Source: Ettlia oleoabundans (Eukaryota > Chlorophyta > Chlorophyceae > Chlamydomonadales). From it: DNA of 46,795 nt. Below are positions 20,333 through 44,600 of this stretch, piece after piece. Within the stretch, counting starts at the first letter, position 1; every line of letters starts with the position of its first letter. Made by a program: the position numbers and the translations under genes. The stretch covers positions 358 to 47,152 of the forward strand of contig JAAMXP010000513.1 in the NCBI GenBank assembly GCA_019693395.1, in the 5' to 3' direction. Under the pieces are notes generated by a model. It had not been told where the DNA came from and did not search any database. It saw nothing but the letters and a program-made list of their open reading frames with translations.

Positions 20333-20339
20333 TGGTGAA
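20333..20339. repeat. Left target-site duplication TGGTGAA
   Basis: TGGTGAA directly precedes the left TIR and recurs directly after the right TIR at 29585-29591. Eight bases (GTGGTGAA) match if the last G of the right TIR is counted as flank. Confidence 0.85.
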
Positions 20340-20466
20340 CAGCTAAGGGCCCACGAAGGGCCTATGCTGCGTCACCTCACCCGGCTCAATGGCCTCCCAT
20401 AGTGAACTCGAATGACTTCTCCCAAGCACTTCCCAAAACAGGCTGCAACTTGGCCGCTAAAGCGTT
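20340..20466 (+). repeat. Left terminal inverted repeat, 127 bp
   Basis: Begins CAGCTAAGGGCCCACG and ends CTAAAGCGTT. Similarity to the right arm continues with a few mismatches to about 20478 (ATTGCTGT shared). It contains an internal GGGCCC...GGGCC palindrome-like motif near the tip. Confidence 0.95.
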
Positions 20467-20586
20467 AAATTGCTGTTATTTTGTCGTCTTTTGGCAGCCC
20501 TGTGTTCAAGTGGCGAGTGAACGCAGCGCTTGTTGGCCAGATCATTTCTGGCGTGGCGCCTGGGGGTTCTCTGGCCAGTAAGTTTG

Positions 20587-23500
20587 ATGCAATATGATTC
20601 AGAGCTTTGGGAGCACGACATGGGCTCCGAAGACCCGGCAGCGGAAGGCGCTTCGGCCAGGGATGATGACAGCCTCGCAACGCCTGGCAGCGGCAGGAAA
20701 AGGAAGCGTGGGTTTCCATGGGGCAAACATCCGGAACTGGAAGCGTTGGTGAAGAGGTTCAAGCAGAGCAACCCCAGCCTTCGCGGCGGCAGTGGCGCTG
20801 CCGGCGGCTTGAAGGCGTTTCAGGCATTGGTTACAGCAGAGAACAGCAGGCGTCAGTCAGAAGGCTTGCAATTGATAGAATTTCCTGCAGAGATCAGTGA
20901 GCGCGTCTTCAAAACAAAGTATCAGAGCACCCAGGCATCCCGTGCCAGATATGATATCAACAGCGGTTCCCCAGTTGTAAGCGCTGGCAGGGTGGGTGCC
21001 GCAATCGGTGCAGGCGGCAGCAGTCAACAACAGCCGCTGCTGCCGTCGCAGCAGCAGCAGCAGCAGCTGCAGCAGGCATTTGACGGTTTTGAAAGCGTCA
21101 TAGGTGTGCCTCCTGAACAGGTGGTTGTGCATTTACTTGGGAGTGCATGCTTGCCATACGCCGATGGTTGCAGACTGTTACAGCATTGTTCCCTGCGTAT
21201 GGCTGGTATTGCTCTTTGATTGCCTGCAGTCGATTTCCCAGAGGTGGATGAGCCTGGCAAGCAGCACGCCCAGCAAAGGCATGCGAGGCGGAAAGGTCGA
21301 CCTGGGCAGCTGGGCTCCATTGTTGGAAGTGATAGCAGGGGCGGGGATGCAGTTGAGGGCGGGGTAGAGAGTGCAGATGAGGCAGGGAATGCACTGATGG
21401 AGTTGGTTGAGTCCAAAACCAGTGTGAAACGGTTGCTGGATAATCATATGAAAGTGATGGAGATGTATCCGTTCCTTCAAGCACTGGTTTATTATGAGTT
21501 TCCGGACGGGCACAACTTTCTGGACACCAGGTTGGTCTGGTTGGACCTGTTGAGATTAATTGCTGGCACTGTTCTGCACAGCTGCACATGGATAACAGCC
21601 CTGTCCCTTGTAGCTTCTTACCGGAGGGCATGTGCACGCTCTTGCAACCTCTTGTGCTTGCTCATCCCCTTCCCGACGGCTCTTTGGAACAGGGGATTTT
21701 TGTTTAGCTCTCCCGAGATTCGCGAACAAATCTTAAAGGGATTTTTGGGCATTCGACAGGTTAGTACGGTAGGCAGCTGTCGCCAAGCATGCATAGTCGG
21801 CATGATAAACACAAATAGTTGACAGGGGTAGCGTGCACCACCTTGCGGCAGCCTCTGCGCAGCCCGTCCTTCAGAGCTGATTCAATTTCTAACTACATTC
21901 CTCTTGCGTTGCTTGCAGAATGGCCTTGTTAAGCTGGCAACGGGTGAGCTGCAGTTGCCTAGGGAAGCCCCCCCAGCTCCTCACAGGAAGAAGGGGCGAC
22001 CGGATGCGTTCGGCGCTTTTGCGCTGTATCGCAATGCACCTCAGAACAAGGAGCGCTGGAACCTGGAACTTGCAAACGGCGCCGTCTCTGACACCAAGAG
22101 CAAGCTTGCAGCAGTCTCCAAAGTGGCGAGCAATGCATGGAAAGCAGAGCCACCTAGCGTGCGTGACATGTGGGTGGAGAAAGCTCGCCAGGCCGGGATG
22201 GCAAACGCTGCAGGTTGGTATCAAGCGTACGGCTCATGTGTTCTATTTTTAGTATGTTGCGCACCCACCATATATTGTGGACCCTGGTGTCCATGGCAGG
22301 GGAGGCTCAACCAGCAGACTCAAATATGCGTTCAGAGGCCATCAGTGGCAGCACGCATCACCTGGGTGCTTTCACGTCACTTTTGACTGTTTGATGAACT
22401 GCAGCCCGCACCTCCAGCGCTGGCGTTGCAGCGGACTCGGAGGGTACTACATCTGGGGCTCCTAGCCAGGTAGGCAGTGTTGGATGGCGAACAACAATTC
22501 AGCTAGTCACCCTAGATGGTGCCACTGCCATAAAGTTGCATCCACAGGCATGCTGCTGGCAAGTGCTTCTGTCCAAAATCTTCTTCGACCTGTCTCACGC
22601 AGGCTGGGCGCATCCGTTTAGCTCACAACGGTGCGACCTCGCGGTTGGCTAACTCACAAGAAATGGCAGGTAAACACATAGTCAGCTTCGAGCAAAGCCG
22701 TTGTTTGCAACCATTTAATCACGATTTCTGCCTTTTTCACTGCATTTCTAGCTTTTGCAGCGGTGCTTCCTGGCCAAGCAGATACCAGTTTGCTAGGAGC
22801 TGCAAGCTTGCACATGGAGCCAGCAGTGAGTTGATGTGCTGACTGGATGGGGTGCTCGCTTATTACGGTGTATGCAAACATAACTCGCTGGTGCTCAATG
22901 CGGCTGGTGTCCCTGCAGTCCATTATTGAGTGGTCCTTTATTGCTGCAGGTGGCTGCCGCCGCGGCTACAGCACCCGCCTGCTATGATGCGCTGCTCCAG
23001 CCACGGCCTTCCACGGCAATGGAGGCTGCTCTGTTCAACATGGCAGGTCAGTGAGGGATGCGTTGCTGTTGATCTGCTGTGCTTGCAGCGCGCGCTGGGA
23101 GTACAAGAGATCAACAGTTCTGTCGAGCCTGCCTTGCACCCGGCGGGTGCCTGCTCCCTACAACAGCACGGCTGCCTTGCCTCGACCCAGATGGGAACTT
23201 GGTCTTTATCGCCTTCTTGCTTCCTTGCTACGTTTCTCGTGTTGTTCGAGCGCACGCTGCACTGGGCACGAATCTCGCGGGAAGCGTACACATGTGATTG
23301 CGGTTCGGGGGGCGCCTTTGTATAGCACCAAACAGCTTGAAATGATGCATAGATGTTACCTGGAAAAGGTGGGATGCTCCGGTTTGAGTCGACAAAATCC
23401 GATGGCTGTGACAGAGGCTTGCACCCCCCCCCCCCTTGAAGCCCTGCGACATAGGGGCCATTCCCCCAAAAGTTGAGTTTGGCCTCCAAACTTGATTTCC

Positions 23501-24758
23501 TACCGTTTGAACTATTTTGATCACAAGTACAAGTCGATAGTTGGATCACGTAGGTGTCAGGACCTTTCTGACTGAAATGTGTGGCATGTCTTGTGCAGGT
23601 TCGACGCCCGTCGTGGATCAGCCAGGCAGGCAGCAGCAGCCCAGCAGACAGCTGCAGCAGCCTAGTAGCCAGCAGCAGAGGCCTGCCGCACCCCAGCCTA
23701 GGCAGCAAGCGACTGCAGGGGATACATCGTCTGCAAGCTCAGTACTCGGTGGTCGATATGCATGCTTACAGCCTTTCCTGGCTGAGTTACAGCCCTTACG
23801 TGGTCTGGAGGAGTTGGAAGGCCTTCTTCATAGTGGCCTTGCCATCAACATCCTGCACTCTGACCCGCCGTTGCAGCTCGCGCTGACCTGGCTGTGCCAG
23901 TCAGTCAGCATGTGCTCACCTGCACGAGGCAGTATCGACAGCATCTTCTTAAACGGGGCGCTGCGGTCGAAGTGGCGTGAGGCAGAGGTGCCAGTGCTGC
24001 AGGCCTGGCTGCAGCTATATGCAGCAGTGGTGCCACGGCAGAGGAACAAAGAAGCCCTGGTCAGTGCTATCTTGAAGGAGCTGGGCAACCCTGATCGGGA
24101 GCAGCACCAGCGGAATGTGGTGTATGACAGAGCTACCTTGCTGATCAGGCAGGCTGCGCAGCAAGCACGTCTACAACGCACTGCCCCAGCTGGCAGCAGA
24201 GCGGCTAGCGCAATAGCTGGGGGCGGACTGTTGCCAGCTGGCACCGCGGGTGCGATGCCCGCAGTGCTGGGTACCAACACGGGCACAATATCCGTTCAGG
24301 AGCAGCAGCAGAAGCAGCAACAGCAGCAACAAGTATCAGCTTTTGTTGACATTGCTCCTACCTCGGCAGGCTCAGGGGTGCCAGCTGTCGGCTGTTCTTT
24401 GCATGCAATTCCTGGCGCCATGAGCTATGCGGGCGTGGCGGCCCCAGCCGTCTCAGCGGCCCAGCCGCTGCCGCAACAACATGAGCACCAGCATGGACAT
24501 TCCTTGGCAGTCGCTGGTGTCCCTGGCATGGCAGCAGATGCAGATCTGGCGGCTGCATTGGCAGCCGTTACGCCCACCATGCCAGCGGCCAGCGACTTCG
24601 CGCCATTTCCAGCGTCGAGCTCTTCCATTGCTGCGCTGGCGTCACAGTTTTTACCTCACATGCCTATGCTGCAGTTGCCCCTACCCTTCCCGCCCATGCC
24701 GATGCCAGATAGGAATGCAGCCGCAGCATCAGCAGTGCAAGACATGCCTCAGCCGTAG
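20587..24758 (+). CDS. Transposon companion protein with HMG-box-like domain and AT-hook-like motifs
   Basis: Nine exons join in phase: 20587-21103, 21230-21530, 21708-21759, 21919-22213, 22405-22469, 22603-22669, 22752-22825, 22950-23046, 23599-24758; 2,628 nt, 875 aa. The N-terminus is acidic, with a nuclear-localisation-like GRKRKRGFPWGKHPE. A glutamine run from a CAG repeat follows near residues 146-165. Two AT-hook-like cores come next (RRKGRPGQL and KKGRPDAF); the second opens an HMG-box-like segment (about 310-380: DAFGAFALYR...NAWKAEPPSVRDMWVEKARQ). Residues near 618-652 (VPVLQAWLQLYAAV...NKEALVSAILKELG) resemble a SAP-like helical pair. The last third is Ala/Gln/Pro-rich. All this suggests nuclear DNA binding, perhaps to the TIRs; that role is inference. 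Exon 3 (52 nt) is the weakest join. Confidence 0.72.
21021..21074 (+). repeat. CAG-rich tract encoding polyglutamine
   Basis: Repeated CAG/CAA codons in exon 1 of the transposon companion gene. A second, CAG/CAA-mixed tract lies at about 24301-24332 in its last exon. Confidence 0.9.
23047..23598 (+). other. Long intron of the companion gene with a C12 tract
   Basis: At about 550 nt this is the longest intron in the element. It contains a run of twelve C at about 23424-23435. A minus-strand open frame crosses it (23228-23524) but shows no recognised domain. Confidence 0.5.
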
Positions 24759-24852
24759 ATGTAGTTGAACCTCCAAGCATTGCAAGCAGTGTTTCTATAA
24801 CAGCGTATTGTTGCAGTTTCGAGCCTGTGTATTATGAATGGGCATCCACAGG

Positions 24853-24857
24853 TTACA
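24853..24857 (-). promoter_or_regulatory. Putative TGTAA poly(A) signal of the transposase
   Basis: TTACA on the plus strand lies about 145 bases beyond the transposase stop, in the short gap between the two convergent transposon genes. Confidence 0.4.
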
Positions 24858-25002
24858 AGTGGCTGCTATGTCTCTGAATCTGCTACTTTTCACCGCCTCT
24901 CTACATGGACTTATATTTATTCCAAGAAGCATCCGACGATAGGTTGATCAAGGCTGATAGGTTGGTCATGACAGCTGTGGATAAAGCCTGCCAACAGGTA
25001 GA

Positions 25003-28000
25003 TTATGTTGATGCAGGCATGATCCAACCAGCTTCTGTGAAGGCCTTTGCTGCTTGCATCTCCTGCGCCCCAACTTGTATTGCCCACGCGTTCAGCACGT
25101 GTTTCCGACCCTGGCACATGGCCTGCCCAGTTGGCGTCTCTGCTTGCTGCTCTTCATCGCACTGTGCTGCCAATGCAAGCTCCAGCAGCCGTCGCTGGTG
25201 CTGATAATACTGCAGCGCATTCAGGGCATCCTGTGGAAGGAAGCGCAATTCTTCCTCACAACGTTTGAGTTCCTGAGTGATGCAGTACAACCTGTACCGT
25301 AGATGCTGCTCAGTTAGGCCCTGAGCTGCAGATGCTGCTGTCCACGGAAGCACATTACTGAAAATATCTGCCTCTTCCCAGGCAGGGAGCTGAAAACATG
25401 GCGGTTGGTTAAAGCGCTGCCAGGCCTCCCAGACAGCCATCAGCTCCCGAATCTGCCGCACACGGTACCTAATCCTGCAAATATACAGCGGGATGCCCAA
25501 ACCCCAGAATTACATGTGTGTTTGCAAAAAGGCTGACATGGATGGAAAAAAAATGAACTAGCGAATGCATAATAAACCATACGGGTACACAAAGAAGGCA
25601 ACTGTACAACAGGGAACAGTCCCAGCATCAAACTAAGCCTTGAATTGCCCAGAGTCATCAGCTCCACCCGTACTCACTTGTCTCGGATGAGGCCTGTGTT
25701 GTGCCCTGACTGTACCTCCATGCCGCGGTCTTCTTGCAGGGTAGCCAGGAAGGAAACGTGACGCTCAACCTTCACCTCAATGTTGCGCACGCTGGTGGTC
25801 CGCAAACCCTCGGCGGCTTCCTGCTTAGTGCATGGCAGCAACAACCGTGTCCCATGCGCTGAAGACTGCGAGACGGCTGCAAATGCCACCAAATGAATGT
25901 AGCCTGCATTGAAGCACTCCGACAAGATGATGCTGACGCCCACAAGCCAGCGATAAAACCAAACACAGGTCTTAGGTGTCATTTGTATGACAAGTGACAC
26001 CTGCAGCTTGTCATACAGGTGAAAGGTATGACTGCACCTGATACTGCGGGTCGACCGGCTGCCAATCTTGCGCAGTTGTGGAGATGCCCAGCCTCCTACG
26101 CAGCCGTTTGAGGTCAGCTTCCAACTTAGGAAGGTACTTGGGATCGTTGACCTGGACCGCCAGCGCCCGCCCGGTGTTGCTGTCCAGCCCTGCGATAACA
26201 GCGCTGCCGCCCCGTGCAGTCAGGCTCTCATACAACCCCCTAGCTGCCAACGTCTTGACATACAGCTCTGGGTCAGTCAGCTTCATCGCTCCTACACAAG
26301 GGAAATGCTTCACGCTGTTGAGAACAACGCATGGAGGCTCTAGGTTGAGATGTGGGAATACATTTAGTAGCAGCTTTGTTTCTGAGAGTCAAGACTGTAA
26401 ACCCTCAAAAGCAAAAGCAAAGCAGCATCGGCTCACCCTGCTCTGGCTGCTCGAAGCGGGCATCTGGGTCAAGCTGAAAACCCTGCTGAGCTGCGAAAGC
26501 CAGCGTTGCGTCCCGCTCGCCTAGCAGTTTGCTCTTACGTCGCTCTGTGTGGCGTAGGGTCTTGCAAAGGACAAAAAAGGAAACGCAGGCACCCTATTGG
26601 CTGCCAAATCTGCTACCAGCATCCAGCTGTCCAATGGCAGGTGACCCACCTGCACCAGCAACTCTGCGCTGCGCCGGTACTTGCGGCTGGCCAGGTGAAT
26701 AAGAGCCAGCTCCAGCGTTAGAATGCGGTGCGGCTTTGCCTGGTACCGTTGGATCCGTGCAACTGGCTTGAGCTCTGCCTGCATAAGAAGAAAGGATTTG
26801 CTGCTGTTGAAGAATGAGCCCGTGGACTTGCTGTGCCAAGCAAAGGTGGGCACTATAACTGCAATAAATTGGTGCGGTGCAACACTAAAAACACAATGGT
26901 GCGGCAGGTCACGATGCTCACACTGCCATCAAAGGCAGGGAAGGGCCCAAAGGACTTCCACGCACCCAAATACGTTCCATGACCTCTCCATCAGTGCGGC
27001 CCAGCCCATCACCAAACATGGCACTGAACTCCAGCTGGCAATCCAGGTTGTGGCCGGCCTTGGCATGCAACCAGCCAATATAGCAGCGCAACTTCTTGGC
27101 AAGGTTGGGGAAGTACTTGGCAAGGTGCTTGGAAAACTGGCAGTTGATGTCCAACACAAACTCCTTGACTTGCGGCAGCGCAGCCGGCTGGTCCTTGGTG
27201 CCATACAGCACAACCATCAGCAGCGCAACGTACTGCGCAAAGTGCTCGTGGTAAGGGCTGGACATGAACGTCCCGCAAACCGGCACATTGTGCTTGCAAG
27301 CGCCGCCACTGATATTCTTTTCATCAACCACAGTGCTGCCTCCACTTTTCGCTGTCTCCCGCGAGCATGTCAGGTTGGCCTCGCATGTGGCAACATCATC
27401 GCCTACACAGTAACATAACCAACTACGACATCAAACACAGGACACCAGCCACAATTAAGCACACCTGAGCACACCTGTCAACAATTCAAAACCAGAGGAG
27501 GACGCAAGTCCACGCACCTGGCGTGTCGCCATCATCCCGAAGCTGCTCAGCTGCGCCACGTAGACCCATCGCTAGCTCGCCAGCTCGGGTGAAATATATG
27601 CTGACCTGTGGTTGTAGACCAGCGTGCTCATATGCAGCTGTGATTGCGTTTCCACATGCACCATAGTGGTTCTGCTTTGCATTGCCATCAGCTGAGAGGC
27701 TTAGGCTGCGCTGCTCTGCTTGTACACCAGACCGCAACACGTACTGCCACGTCTGTGCTTGAGACATCTGCACTCAAAATCTGCTCAACACAATGGTCAC
27801 AAATGTAAAGCGCAACAAGTAGTAGAAACAGATAAAATAGATAATCCATGACTAAACACTCACAATGCCAATTGCTTAACGCGCAACACCAGCTCACCTT
27901 GGGAAGCAGCTGATAGTTGGGTGCCTGTTGTAGGGATGGGCAAGTACTGCCGGCCGCACCGATTGCCAGCAGTATGCCAGCAGCGCCATTTTCCTCGAAA

Positions 28001-29334
28001 CCTGCTGCCTCAGCGCCAACCCCACCAGCCTCTGGGGCTGCTCCTCCTATTGCCGGCACCACAGCAACCGTTTGAAAACCCTCTCGTGCCGCTGCGAGTG
28101 GTGCCTGAGCTGACAACAGCTGATTGCTTTGTTGCTGCCCTGCGGTTACGTCTGCCCCAACCAACTGCTGCAACTGGGCACCAGCACAAGGAGGACAGTG
28201 GCCAATGCTGCTGGAGAATATGTCAGCGCCGCACCTTGCAGGGCTGTTGGCAAGGTATTGCTCGACCCGCGCATGCCGCAATGCAGGCCCCAAGATTTTA
28301 GGAACTAGAGGCAGAGTTTTGCGGGGCTGCACTTGCAGCTGCTCGGTATATTCAGCGTATTGGCTAAGCACAGAAGCAAAATTATTCACAGCCACGCCCG
28401 CCTCAACCTCCAGCAAGCCGTGCAACAAAACCAGCGGCCCCTCCAGCCAGGAATGGGCTGCCACAGGAGAGGTGGCATGACAGTCGATGGCTGCTGGATG
28501 CATTTCAAAAAGGGCACACCCACAGCTGCAGGCACAAACCAAATCACTGGGACATACTGTAAGCCAGCGGGGTGAACTGCCCACCAGGTGACACATTGGA
28601 AGCTGTGCACACTTTGAACGGCATGCTCACGTCAATGTGAATGCATGAATTTGACCCCAGCATACCTCGGCGAGGGGATGGATATGGCCCCGGTGCCACA
28701 CATTGTTCTCAACAGGACCTTGCGCCAGCCAACAACCTGGGCTTTACCGCTGCACGTGCAATTAGGCTGCGCTGCTTCTTGTATGTATTGTAGCACCCGT
28801 TGCTGGTACAGCTGCAACCGCTGCTGTAAGTCCTGACGGCGGTATTCTGCTATCTGCGGGGCTCGCATGATGCGATACTGCACACCTAGCTCATCATGCT
28901 CACGGAACTGCTGCTCAAACTTTGCACAGCGTTGGCCGTGGGCTGACAAGCCGGCGTCGGCTTCCGGCAACCACAGGTTGGTGGGCTTGTTGCCAGGTTG
29001 TGCACTGCCGTGGTGTTCATCAAGGCTGTCATAGACACCACAGTCATCATCAAAGAACACATTTTCATCATCCCCAAGCAGTGCTGCTGCAACCTGCCAG
29101 TTCGCCCTGCTACGGTTGAGGCTGCGGCCCTTTGCCGCCGCCTGTGCCGCCTTGGCAGCTTCTGCTGCTTTGGCTACCCTCGCATGCTCAGCTGCTTGTC
29201 GGCGTTGTTCTTCCGCTGTGGGCTTCTTGTAGCGCAGATTCCAGCCTGCAGCCTGGGACGCACTATGACAACCCTCAGGCCAAGAACCCCTCCCCCGATA
29301 TTGCGCCGCGGAAAGCTTGGTCTGCACCTTTCAT
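25003..29334 (-). CDS. KDZ (Kyakuja-Dileera-Zisupton) superfamily transposase
   Basis: Minus-strand exons, 5' to 3': 29328-29334, 28666-29245, 27898-28576, 27518-27767, 26966-27402, 26650-26778, 26437-26560, 26038-26291, 25678-25970 (or to 26000), 25003-25474; about 1,074 aa. An Ala/Glu coiled-coil-like N-terminus is followed by a cysteine cluster (CTC near 175-185, then CPSDLVCACSCGC from about 204) and CPPCAG. The core shows KDZ hallmarks in order: LSADGNAKQNHYG (D about 449), VVDEKNISGGACKHNVPV, VLDINCQFSKHL (D about 590) and GRTDGEVMERIW (E about 645). The Asp, Asp and Glu are the likely DDE catalytic residues. The C-terminus is helical and charged (IRYRVRQIRELMAVWEAW). It would excise and reinsert the element by recognising the TIRs. 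No frameshift was seen. The 7-nt first exon (ATGAAAG) is inferred from phase. Confidence 0.85.
25984..26017. repeat. 11-bp perfect inverted repeat inside the transposase gene
   Basis: TGTATGACAAG (25984-25994) and CTTGTCATACA (26007-26017) are separated by 12 bases. The hairpin overlaps the intron following exon 8, where the acceptor choice is ambiguous. Confidence 0.85.
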
Positions 29335-29457
29335 GTGTTTGCTAACATCAACTTATGATGAACAGGGTCCGTGTGCACGTTGACAACAACCACGGCGTTC
29401 GCCTTAGGCCCTCGCGGGCAAGCACAACGCGATAATGACCTTATAATACAGCAATGC

Positions 29458-29584
29458 AACGCTTTAGCGGCCAAGTTGCAGCCTGTTTTGGGAAGTGCTT
29501 GGGAGAAGTCATTCGAGTTCACTATGGGAGGCCATTGAGCCGGGTGAGGTGACGCAGCATAGGCCCTTCGTGGGCCCTTAGCTG
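29458..29584 (-). repeat. Right terminal inverted repeat, 127 bp
   Basis: The exact reverse complement of 20340-20466 by base-by-base reading. Confidence 0.95.
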
Positions 29585-29591
29585 TGGTGAA
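29585..29591. repeat. Right target-site duplication TGGTGAA
   Basis: Second copy of the 7-bp sequence flanking the transposon. Confidence 0.85.
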
Positions 29592-29794
29592 AAGGAAGCA
29601 CGATTTCCCAAGCCATGTCCTCTCAAAGCAGCAATCGCTGGATGGGCAGGGTTGCCTTGGCTTTTGGCCTCACCCGGGGTGAGAGGACCTTCAGTCAACC
29701 TTGGATACGCAAGCCCTCTTGAGGCAGGGTCGCTCGGCTGCTGCAGGTGTGTAGGTGACTCACCCAGATCTCCGCTGTCCTTGCTGCAACAGGG

Positions 29795-30652
29795 ATGTTC
29801 TCATGCACAGCTGCCGGCTGCCGCCGCGCCTTGTCAGCGGCCCAGCTAGGCGCCGCCGCGGCCCTGTGGGTAACGGCGCTGTCGATGTTCTGCAGCGAGC
29901 TGTCTGAGAACGTTGCTTGGAGAGAACTCCTGAGTTGCAGACACAAAAATTCAAATGCTCAATCTGAAACAAATTGCATTCTCGATGTGCAGGGCAATCG
30001 GGCTGGGAAGCTAGAAGCTAGGCTTCGTGGGCTTCACAAGGGAGCAATGCCCAAACTGTGCTGGCCCTACCTGCTGCCTGGCACAGCGCTCGTCACTGTG
30101 GCTGGCCTCATGTCGGTAGCGGTAGCGCTTGCTGCAGCGTCGGCAGTTGAGCCGCAGCGCTCCCGGGCGCACTGTCTGAAAAAGTTTCTGGATTTGTTGT
30201 TTTGGTTCAGCCTGTTTTTCCTCGTGCCGCTGCTGGGACCCTTTCTGTTAGCTCTCTTCTGCACGCTGATCTCCCGTGATGACCCTCTAGACATGCGAAG
30301 CATGGCCGCAGCCTTGACTGCATCTCTGCTCTACAGCAGCGCCTTTGTTTCTTTCCTTGGAGCAGGCGTGTTCTTGCTGGTGCAGGGGGCAGCGGAACCT
30401 GGATGCTCCGGAAATGCTGCTGCGGCACCCGTCTTTTCCGGCGTGGCTGCCGGCACAGCGGCGCTCACCATGATTGTCATTTTTTTCTGGTGCCTGCATG
30501 GACTCCGCCTTGTGATGCCCCCACCAGTCAATACCTTGTTGTGCCGTGTTGTTGCTCATGTGAGCGGGAGAGCCTCCATGCTGTTCTGCAAGTCTGTTGA
30601 AGATGACGGTATTGCCTCTGTTGACAGCAGCTCTGTCGCAAGCTCTGTGTAA
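29795..30652 (+). CDS. Multispan membrane protein, single exon, function unknown
   Basis: One uninterrupted frame of 285 aa from ATG to TAA. An Ala-rich N-terminus (residues about 13-32) is weakly hydrophobic. Four strong spans follow near 90-113 (PYLLPGTALVTVAGLMSVAV), 128-150 (LDLLFWFSLFFLVPLLGPFL), 166-187 and 204-228 (AGTAALTMIVIFFWCLHGL). The tail is acidic and Ser-rich (DDGIASVDSSSVASSV). No family is recognised. The stop overlaps a TGTAA motif and another lies near 30849. An intron hidden in residues 40-85, where sequence is less hydrophobic and Asn-rich, is possible. Its start is 204 bp from the transposon end, so its promoter may be split or displaced by the insertion. Confidence 0.6.
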   Translation: MFSCTAAGCRRALSAAQLGAAAALWVTALSMFCSELSENVAWRELLSCRHKNSNAQSETNCILDVQGNRAGKLEARLRGLHKGAMPKLCWPYLLPGTALVTVAGLMSVAVALAAASAVEPQRSRAHCLKKFLDLLFWFSLFFLVPLLGPFLLALFCTLISRDDPLDMRSMAAALTASLLYSSAFVSFLGAGVFLLVQGAAEPGCSGNAAAAPVFSGVAAGTAALTMIVIFFWCLHGLRLVMPPPVNTLLCRVVAHVSGRASMLFCKSVEDDGIASVDSSSVASSV

Positions 30653-41600: not shown

Positions 41601-44600
41601 CTCAAGACTGGCTGTTGGTTGGGTTGTAGGAGCGTGCGTGGCCTGACACTGCGGCTGGCTGATGCGGAGCTCACCCCAGCCAGTGAGGGGCGGCAGGCAG
41701 TGGGCATCGCACTGCCACTGCTGCTGGAGAAAGGCAAGCCCGCTAGCCAGCCACAAAGCCTGCCTACCTTCCTGCTTGCCTCTCCCTGCTAGGTTGGCTG
41801 CCTGCATTACCGGCTGCTCACTTGCTTGCCAGCCTGGCAGCCAGACTCCAAGGACTTAGACGTGTCTTGGCATTGCGACTTCTCCAGCAAGGCATCCATT
41901 AGCTGCTCATGGCCTGTGGCATTGAGTAACCCTTTCTAAGCGCCACAAACCATCAGGACGGACACTTCAGCATTACACGTCACCACTTACCACCTGACTT
42001 GTGCAGGTCTGCCCTCTCAGGTGCGTGAGGTGCAGGCGCTGGCGCTGGACACCACCTGCAAGCTGGCGGCAGCGGCGGGGCCGGAGCTGTTGCGCCCCCA
42101 CATGCCGCTGCTGGTGCCGGCCATGCTTGAAAGCCTCAGGTGGGAGTCTTCTGTGCATTGCGTGGCACGCTTGTTGTGAATGTGCAGGAGGCAAGTGGTA
42201 TGGAGCAGTGGTATGCCATCATGAGGAATGGGGCAACTGCTGCCTTTCTTGCAGCACCCATTGTTTCGGATGGGATTTTTGCACTGCTACCTCGGCTGTT
42301 TCCCAAGCGAATCGTGGACTGACCCGATTCTGACTGCTGTTTTGCGAGCACTGCTACTTCCATCCATCCTCCGCGTGTTACGCAACCAACTCATGTCACA
42401 TCCCACCTCACCCACTCTCCCCCAAACCACCTGCACTCCTTTATTTCCATGCAGCGGCCTGGAAGACACCCGGCTGAATTACATTGAGCAGCATGCGGAG
42501 CGACTGGGCGTAGATGCGGGGCGGCTGGAGGGTGCGCGTGTGGCAGCAGCGCAGGGTGGCCCAGCTGGCGAAACGTTGGACCTGTGCGCCAGGTGGGAAG
42601 AAGGCTCTTGTTGGTGGTGGCAGAATCTTTCTGATGCATGGAGGGGTGCAGGAGCACTATCAAGGCGATCACCGTCTGGCACTCGCATTCTTGTGTCTCA
42701 GCGCCAGCTGTGGGAGCGCCTGGTAAAGAGTTAAGAGGTACCATGTTATGCATCCTGGCTATGTGTTGTGCTTGACTAGCTGGTGGTGTCATACCCAACA
42801 CCAGCATGGAGATGCCTGTGCTGTTCATGCCATCTGGGCAGGTATGTTGATGCTGCAACTATGGTCGAGCTGGCACCCCGGCTGGCGGCACTGGTGCGAC
42901 GCGGTGTGGGGCTCAACACCCGCGCCGGTGCTGGGCGCTTCATAACCCAGGTGGGTGCATGGGGCTGGGATGTGCCATCTATTGGGCAATATGGATTTGA
43001 CGAGGGGTCGGCAGCTGTGATCCCTTGAGGCACGCATGCTAGGCACAGTTACAGGCGAGACGCTGTTTGCACACCATGGCTTTCCAGGAGGCATGTCCCG
43101 GCCCAGCTGCACTCCTTATTGCACTGAAATGTGCCATGCGCAGGTGGCTCGGCGCCTGGGTAGCGACATGCAGCCCCTCGCTTCCCAGCTCATCAAGGTG
43201 CGCTGTGCTGTGCCACACTGTGCTGTGCCGTCCTCTGCGTAACAGGACGCAGTGAAGCTGCACTTCCTGCCGCACGTAACATCCACAGCACCCACCATCT
43301 CCTGCTTGTCTGCTCCACCTGCCTGCCCGCCTCCTCATGTGCCCCACCAACTTCACAACCCAGCACCAACTCTTGGCTGCTACAGGCCCTCACCGAGGCC
43401 TGCCGCTCCGACCGCAGCTCAGCTGTGCGCAAGGCATATGCGGGTGCTGCCGCCTTCTTGTGCCGCCACGCGCCGCCTGCACGTGTCGACCGCTTTGTGT
43501 CTGATGCACTGGCGAGGTTCGCTGGCGAGCACGCTGATAAGGACGACAGATATGTGGCAGGTAGAGTTACTCGTTGAATGCCGGGGCAAAATGTGCGCAC
43601 CGCATTCAAGAAGTGGTGTGGGTTGGGCTCTTCAAAGCAGCGCCAACCCTTGTTGCACAAGCGACAGGCCCCCTACTATATGTTGCGGTTGCGGCCCCGC
43701 ATCGCTCCCATGCCCACGGTGCTGGTTGCAGTGCCACAGACCCGCTAGTGTGTGTTGTGGTTGCTGCGCCGCATTGCCCCCATCCCACGGTGCTGGTTGC
43801 AGTGCCACAGACCCGCTAGTGTGTGTTGTGGTTGCGGCCCCGCATGCTCCTATACCGCTGTGCTCATTGCGCTGCCATCACAGGCCTGCTACTGCGAGAG
43901 CTGGGCCGTGAGTCTTCGGATGTGTTGGCGGCCCATGCGGGCGAGGTGGCACCACCGGCTTTCATGGCACAGGTGCGCCGCATCAGACACCTTGTCTGCT
44001 TGCCGTATTCCTGGAGCTCCTACTCCGCCAACTTGCCCAGCAGCCCTTGTTGCACAGTTGAGCATGTGGATGAATGAAAGGGATCCATTTGCTGCGTTCC
44101 CAAGCTTGCCCCCCTTTCTGTCCCGCACTCACATACACACCCACATGGACTCAATTCACACATATGCATACCAACCTTCCCCGGCTTCCTCCTTCTTGCA
44201 GTTTGACGAAGAGGGCGATGTGGCAGCAGTGTGGCGTGAGGTGTGGGAGGAATGCACAGCCTCAGCAGGCGCCGGCTTGCGGTTGCACATGGCGGAAGTG
44301 GTGAAGGTGGGTGTGGGGTGGGGCGGTGGGGTAGGGAGTAGGGGCAAGAGAGTCTCACCACCCCGGTTCGAACGGGGGACCTGAGGATGACGGTTGTGTC
44401 CGATTGGAAATGTTTACAGTCCTTCGCTCTTCCAACAAGCTATGGTGAGAAGCGCGAGGGATAGTAATCCGACGGGCTTCCGAGAGGGTTGGAGGGACCC
44501 GTCGGATGACCTCACATGCCAGATCGAGTTTCGGGCTTTGCCCTGGCTCCCTTGCCTTGCCTCACCTCTTCCCATGCCCCTGCGTTTGCCCGTGAGGTGC

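Follow-up and report, generated by a model that had tools for sequence, protein, structure and literature searches.

A predicted KDZ-superfamily transposon with perfect 127-bp inverted repeats and complete ends in a Chlorella-like green alga

The 9,245-bp segment at positions 20340-29584 of the analysed stretch of DNA (46,795 nucleotides, hereafter the window) is very probably a DNA transposon of the KDZ superfamily with complete ends, predicted to move by cut and paste. It bears the marks of the superfamily, namely a core matching PF18758, conserved acidic motifs, and terminal inverted repeats (TIRs) accompanied by a 7-bp duplication, and both borders agree to the base with those of the initial annotation. 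The assignment to KDZ proposed there is borne out, since PF18758 matches both the core exon and the spliced gene model, and 11/11 relatives are KDZ proteins. The exon structure and the present activity of the element are what we infer from its sequence. In the mechanism that we propose, the predicted transposase encoded by the element would bind the two identical ends of 127 bp, presumably through a Cys-rich stretch located before the core, and would then excise the element and reinsert it elsewhere. Insertion likely made the 7-bp TGGTGAA duplication, and a convergent companion gene may help, its role in end binding being a guess.

The left TIR (20340-20466, plus strand) and the right TIR (29458-29584, minus strand) are identical at 127/127 positions, as the initial annotation had it. 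When both arms are compared inward, positions 128 and 129 differ and positions 130-137 match again, so that with two mismatches the repeat extends to 20476 on the left and begins at 29448 on the right. An inverted-repeat search with a minimum length of 40 bp retrieved this pair as the sole inverted repeat of the window. The element terminates in CAGC..GCTG and is flanked by TGGTGAA on the left (20333-20339) and on the right (29585-29591), identical at 7/7 positions; when pairs of window positions were drawn at random, their 7-mers agreed in 25 of 200,000 draws. The length of the duplication had been given as 7 bp, or 8 bp with one ambiguous base. Our results retain 7 bp, with the ends of the element symmetric; a length of 8 bp requires that the last G of the right TIR (29584) be shared, that is, counted as duplicated target, to give GTGGTGAA on both sides. 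The alternative 8-bp reading contains a mismatch (TGGTGAAC versus TGGTGAAA).

A Pfam scan of 10 ORFs yielded one match to PF18758 (KDZ), in the minus-strand ORF 26918-27430, with 66.8 bits against a cut-off of 26.6 bits. This core belongs to a predicted transposase gene on the minus strand (25003-29512), modelled with ten exons (29512-29450, 29321-28666, 28546-27898, 27767-27518, 27402-26966, 26778-26650, 26560-26437, 26291-26017, 25865-25678 and 25474-25003) that encode 1,080 aa. All nine introns of the model are of the GT-AG type, and its reading frame is free of internal stops. Against PF18758 it scores 80.6 bits, the match covering profile positions 3-212 of 217; the strong profile match anticipated for the minus-strand protein was obtained with the ORF and with the spliced model. 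The gene model was produced by a simple dynamic program, after which four exon boundaries were altered by hand (26966, 26778, 26560 and 26291). Two other versions were dropped: one read through the donor after the W of the core, and another was cut at this W with the old downstream exons kept, and was outscored by the refined model (64.4 bits, profile positions 3-193).

Because the first coding scores had been trained on DNA containing stretches of N, training and splice search were redone without them. All four hand-altered boundaries reappeared unaided in 3/3 retrained runs, in which 27898, 27767-27518, 27402-26966, 26778-26650, 26560-26437 and 26291 recurred. The retrained runs differ from the ten-exon version upstream of 28493, shift 26017/25865 to 26038/25820, add an exon at 24824-24664 at 2/3 penalties, and also yield a few meaningless exons that are few bases long or empty. 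The start varies as well, lying inside the TIR in one version and at 29334 in the retrained ones. The core exon and the exons adjacent to it are therefore stable across model runs, while the N-terminus changes. Of the two undamaged multi-exon genes described at first, the catalytic half of the transposase gene is upheld, and the rest of both genes is only plausible.

Three acidic sites are predicted in this protein: the Asp of ADGN (27687-27689, minus strand, residue 483), identified in the model by its motif; the Asp of LDINCQFSK (27149-27151, minus strand, residue 624); and the Glu residues of GEVMER (26975-26986, minus strand, residues 679 and 682). The Asp of LDINCQFSK and both Glu residues are invariant in 12/12 aligned sequences. 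The ADGN Asp, the LDINC Asp and the GE..E Glu are putative catalytic residues of the predicted transposase. A 2013 paper still listed Zisupton among the superfamilies without a DDE transposase (PMC3706591). The Cys-rich stretch precedes the KDZ core in the model, whose N-terminal exons vary between runs, and no Pfam match to a CxC zinc-chelating domain, which fungal KDZ members are reported to have at the N-terminus, was found in the ORFs or spliced models scanned. Structure prediction for the core exon gave a poor model (mean pLDDT of 52.1).

Searching with the core exon retrieved 11 database proteins among 61 candidates, all of them (11/11) with PF18758. They are 53-65% identical to the element over 47-100% of the core exon, and come from contigs of 1.1-6.4 kb. 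In the alignment of the core with its 11 relatives, LDINCQFSK, GHNL and GE..E..WV are invariant in 12/12 rows. The V that follows W in 12/12 rows is consistent with a common intron donor after this W. The Glu motif occurs in two forms, DGE.MER.W in the element (window 26966-26990) and in relative P0005, and GE.(I/V)EQ.W in the remaining ten relatives, which perhaps reflects two subfamilies among P0001-P0011 and the element. When the first spliced model was used at full length, none of the 7,989 scored candidates reached an E-value of 0.001 or better. No match to the core exon was found in the viral collection, where 18 stretches fitted a pattern from the 12-row alignment and none passed tblastn; nor was there a match to the KDZ core in the plasmid collection or among PDB sequences.

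The other half of the element holds a predicted companion gene on the plus strand (20587-24758), convergent with the transposase gene and encoding 1,054 aa in one version; in the model, the two stops are 245 bp apart, tail to tail. The better-supported exons are 20587-21103, 21230-21759, 21919-22213 and 23541-24758, with a middle that varies between models, the retrained runs giving exons 21242-21530, 21987-22213 and 23599-24758. Coding scores were compared with those of 100 simulated sequences (maximum 10.3, 95% point 9.2). The eight highest-scoring frames within the element (32.4, 19.0, 18.1, 14.6, 14.4, 11.1, 11.0 and 10.3) all fall in exons modelled for one or other of the two genes. In the companion gene, the first (14.4) and last (ORF 23541-24758, 32.4) exons are coding-like; its second exon (9.1) and its HMG-like exon (9.6) score near the 95% point, and their coding is not secured.

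Both Pfam and fold comparison give a weak hint that one companion exon (21919-22212, plus strand) resembles an HMG box. The exon matches Pfam HMG_box with an E-value of 0.0097 and 16.8 bits, below the cut-off of 25.4, and the whole companion model does so with an E-value of 0.075. A single-sequence structure model of the exon was poor (mean pLDDT of 54.0). Used in a fold search, it gave 30 matches, 27 of which (ranks 1-12 included) we take by title to be HMG-box proteins; the best E-value was 0.56, and no PDB match reached 0.001 or less. No homologue of the exon was found in the database (1 candidate, not passing), and the ORF around it matched only a ribosomal protein among PDB sequences (E-value of 0.22). 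Hence, of the companion DNA-binding gene initially annotated, a coding-like gene is present, and DNA binding is backed by weak HMG-box evidence. Harbinger elements require a Myb-like second protein for transposition. By analogy, an HMG-box companion might bend or package the long ends and be required for transposition, making this a two-protein KDZ transposon; we regard this as unlikely. If it were true, some KDZ elements would be obligate two-component systems.

To place the element within its genome, 32.9 Mb of assembly were searched; all copy counts are lower bounds. A 21-bp end pattern, with up to 3 mismatches allowed, was found in at least 3 places (the two ends described here and one on contig C610), the reversed control giving 0. 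The genome search for other TIR copies recommended by the initial annotation thus delivered one further end. Positions 18097-19627 of C610 match window 29584-28051 with 94.75% identity (1.53 kb, on the transposase side); the match then stops, and no second element end was found on that contig. This copy differs from the element by 7 indel events, of which four, measuring 1, 1, 7 and 1 bases, fall in modelled exon 2, and by substitutions in the TIR (6/127), in non-coding sequence (20/253) and at codon positions 1, 2 and 3 (13/380, 7/381 and 18/382, in the frame of the model). In codons, the differences amount to 16 silent ones and 19 residue changes, none of them to a stop. The C610 copy is a truncated, frameshifted and broken relative. 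Since it carries the same end, this end belongs to a repeated family, and the lower number of changes at codon position 2 than at position 3 indicates that the reading frame of the family was under some selection. The companion-gene half had 10 matches, consisting of itself, the two other ends and 7 matches of 35-59 bp, so that no other copy of it was found in this lower-bound search. A KDZ family search located at least 1 place in the assembly and retrieved no second KDZ core. Copy number of the family in this assembly thus appears very low.

The 0 mismatches in 254 TIR bases limit change per base to about 1.2% or less (3/254) since the arms were alike, if repair is ignored. Insertion was likely fairly recent, as the initial annotation had argued from the mismatch-free TIRs; these are confirmed, although TIRs date an insertion less reliably than LTRs do, since their sequences may be kept identical by repair.

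The host was described as a green alga, and the assembly supports this: its RbcL is identical at 475/475 residues to that of Chlorella sorokiniana in PDB 8q04, a Rubisco structure of this species (PMC11570498). The contig of the window (C184) would come from the same alga as the plastid RbcL of the assembly. In the joined flanks, the insertion point is crossed by a weak open frame (10.8, first scoring) and by no strongly coding one; insertion is therefore likely to have occurred between genes. About 170 bp to the right of the element, window 29759-30652 holds a hydrophobic-rich open frame of 297 aa that is coding-like (42.6, first scoring), with no Pfam match at an E-value of 0.01. Further away, an ORF at window 8450-9313 matches a DEAD-box helicase (E-value of 1.2e-14) and is probably an exon of a host gene, and window 43681-43845 contains a tandem array of ~71-bp units (2.3 copies, 91% matches), seen as 3 partly alike copies in the repeat search.

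These data bear on whether the element can still move, and show no sign of movement at present. It could be silent or dead, that is, complete in outline and immobile at present owing to a defect in its start, splicing or companion gene. This reading is compatible with KDZ identity, and we hold such present immobility to be a substantial possibility, if not the favoured one. It draws on the recovery of at least one full copy and at least one dead fragment in 32.9 Mb, and on the start, N-terminal exons and companion-gene middle that differ between models. Against it, the transposase model keeps an uninterrupted frame of 1,080 aa together with its acidic motifs, the TIRs are identical, and codon position 2 has changed less than position 3 (7/381 versus 18/382).

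Two other explanations were weighed. A domesticated host KDZ gene lying by chance between inverted repeats would agree with the finding of only one KDZ core in the assembly, but the borders of the gene carry perfect TIRs and a 7-bp duplication, and another contig holds a truncated copy bearing the same end, which makes domestication highly improbable. That one arm was duplicated by misassembly is harder still to credit. A perfect repeat of 127 bp would be close to short-read length; however, the match between the arms fades gradually (positions 128-137) before their sequences diverge, the same 7 target bases flank both of them, and a third, diverged end with 6 differences in 127 exists on C610. 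A KDZ transposon with complete ends thus remains our reading of the segment.

As such, the element is a well-preserved but ordinary example, since KDZ elements, active ones included, are already known in algae. No description of a KDZ element in Chlorella was found in the literature among the matches listed, and the two papers in which both names, Zisupton and Chlorella, occur refer to Chlorella in unrelated contexts. With both ends, the duplication and a modelled transposase, the element offers a defined KDZ reference in a Chlorella-like alga, algal members being little described. It also has long perfect TIRs alongside CA..TG termini and a duplication of 7 bp, a combination of features that are separated in the descriptions of fungal clades (PMC12730594). 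Beyond this reference value and mixture of marks, it does not change ideas of how KDZ elements work.

The view that KDZ elements are best known from fungi and fish is incomplete, as reports from Chlamydomonas and its relatives exist for both Zisupton and Kyakuja (PMC8226300), and an insertion of Kyakuja-3_cRei into Chlamydomonas CBA1 is in print (PMC10828217). Chlamydomonas Kyakuja, as described in these two papers, resembles our element in superfamily, green algal host, short duplication and inverted ends; the fresh Kyakuja-3 insertion differs in its 8-bp duplication and imperfect inverted repeats, against 7 bp and perfect repeats of 127 bp here. Movement of a 31.7-kb KDZ element in Chlamydomonas is cited in PMC12477816, which also describes giant KDZ elements in the brown alga Ectocarpus; these are likewise algal, but reach 30.3 kb and number 6,403 copies in 8 families. 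A close parallel in dimensions is KDZ2 of Cryptococcus neoformans, whose movement has been observed; it measures ~9.2 kb and carries TIRs of 139 bp, against 9.2 kb and 127-137 bp here (PMC12810828). According to the same source, duplications measure 4-8 bp for KDZ2 and KDZ3 and 8 bp for KDZ1; KDZ1-KDZ3 differ from our element in their fungal host and in a CxC1 transposase domain, unmatched here.

Fish Zisupton shares with the element the KDZ core, a multi-exon gene, a protein of >1,000 aa and TIRs, but its duplications are of 8 bp (PMC12730594, PMC9297572). Two Kyakuja families of the fungus Laccaria are described with 7-bp duplications and CA..TG termini, as here, but without TIRs and with a TET/JBP gene (Kojima 2025, PMC12730594). 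No Pfam match to a TET/JBP dioxygenase was found among the 10 ORFs and spliced models scanned. The label Zisupton-type given initially is not established by these marks, a 7-bp duplication together with CA..TG termini being published for Kyakuja. Though it departs from the fungal families in having TIRs, the element has both of these Kyakuja marks, and from the published clade descriptions we tentatively lean, within KDZ, towards Kyakuja by its termini.
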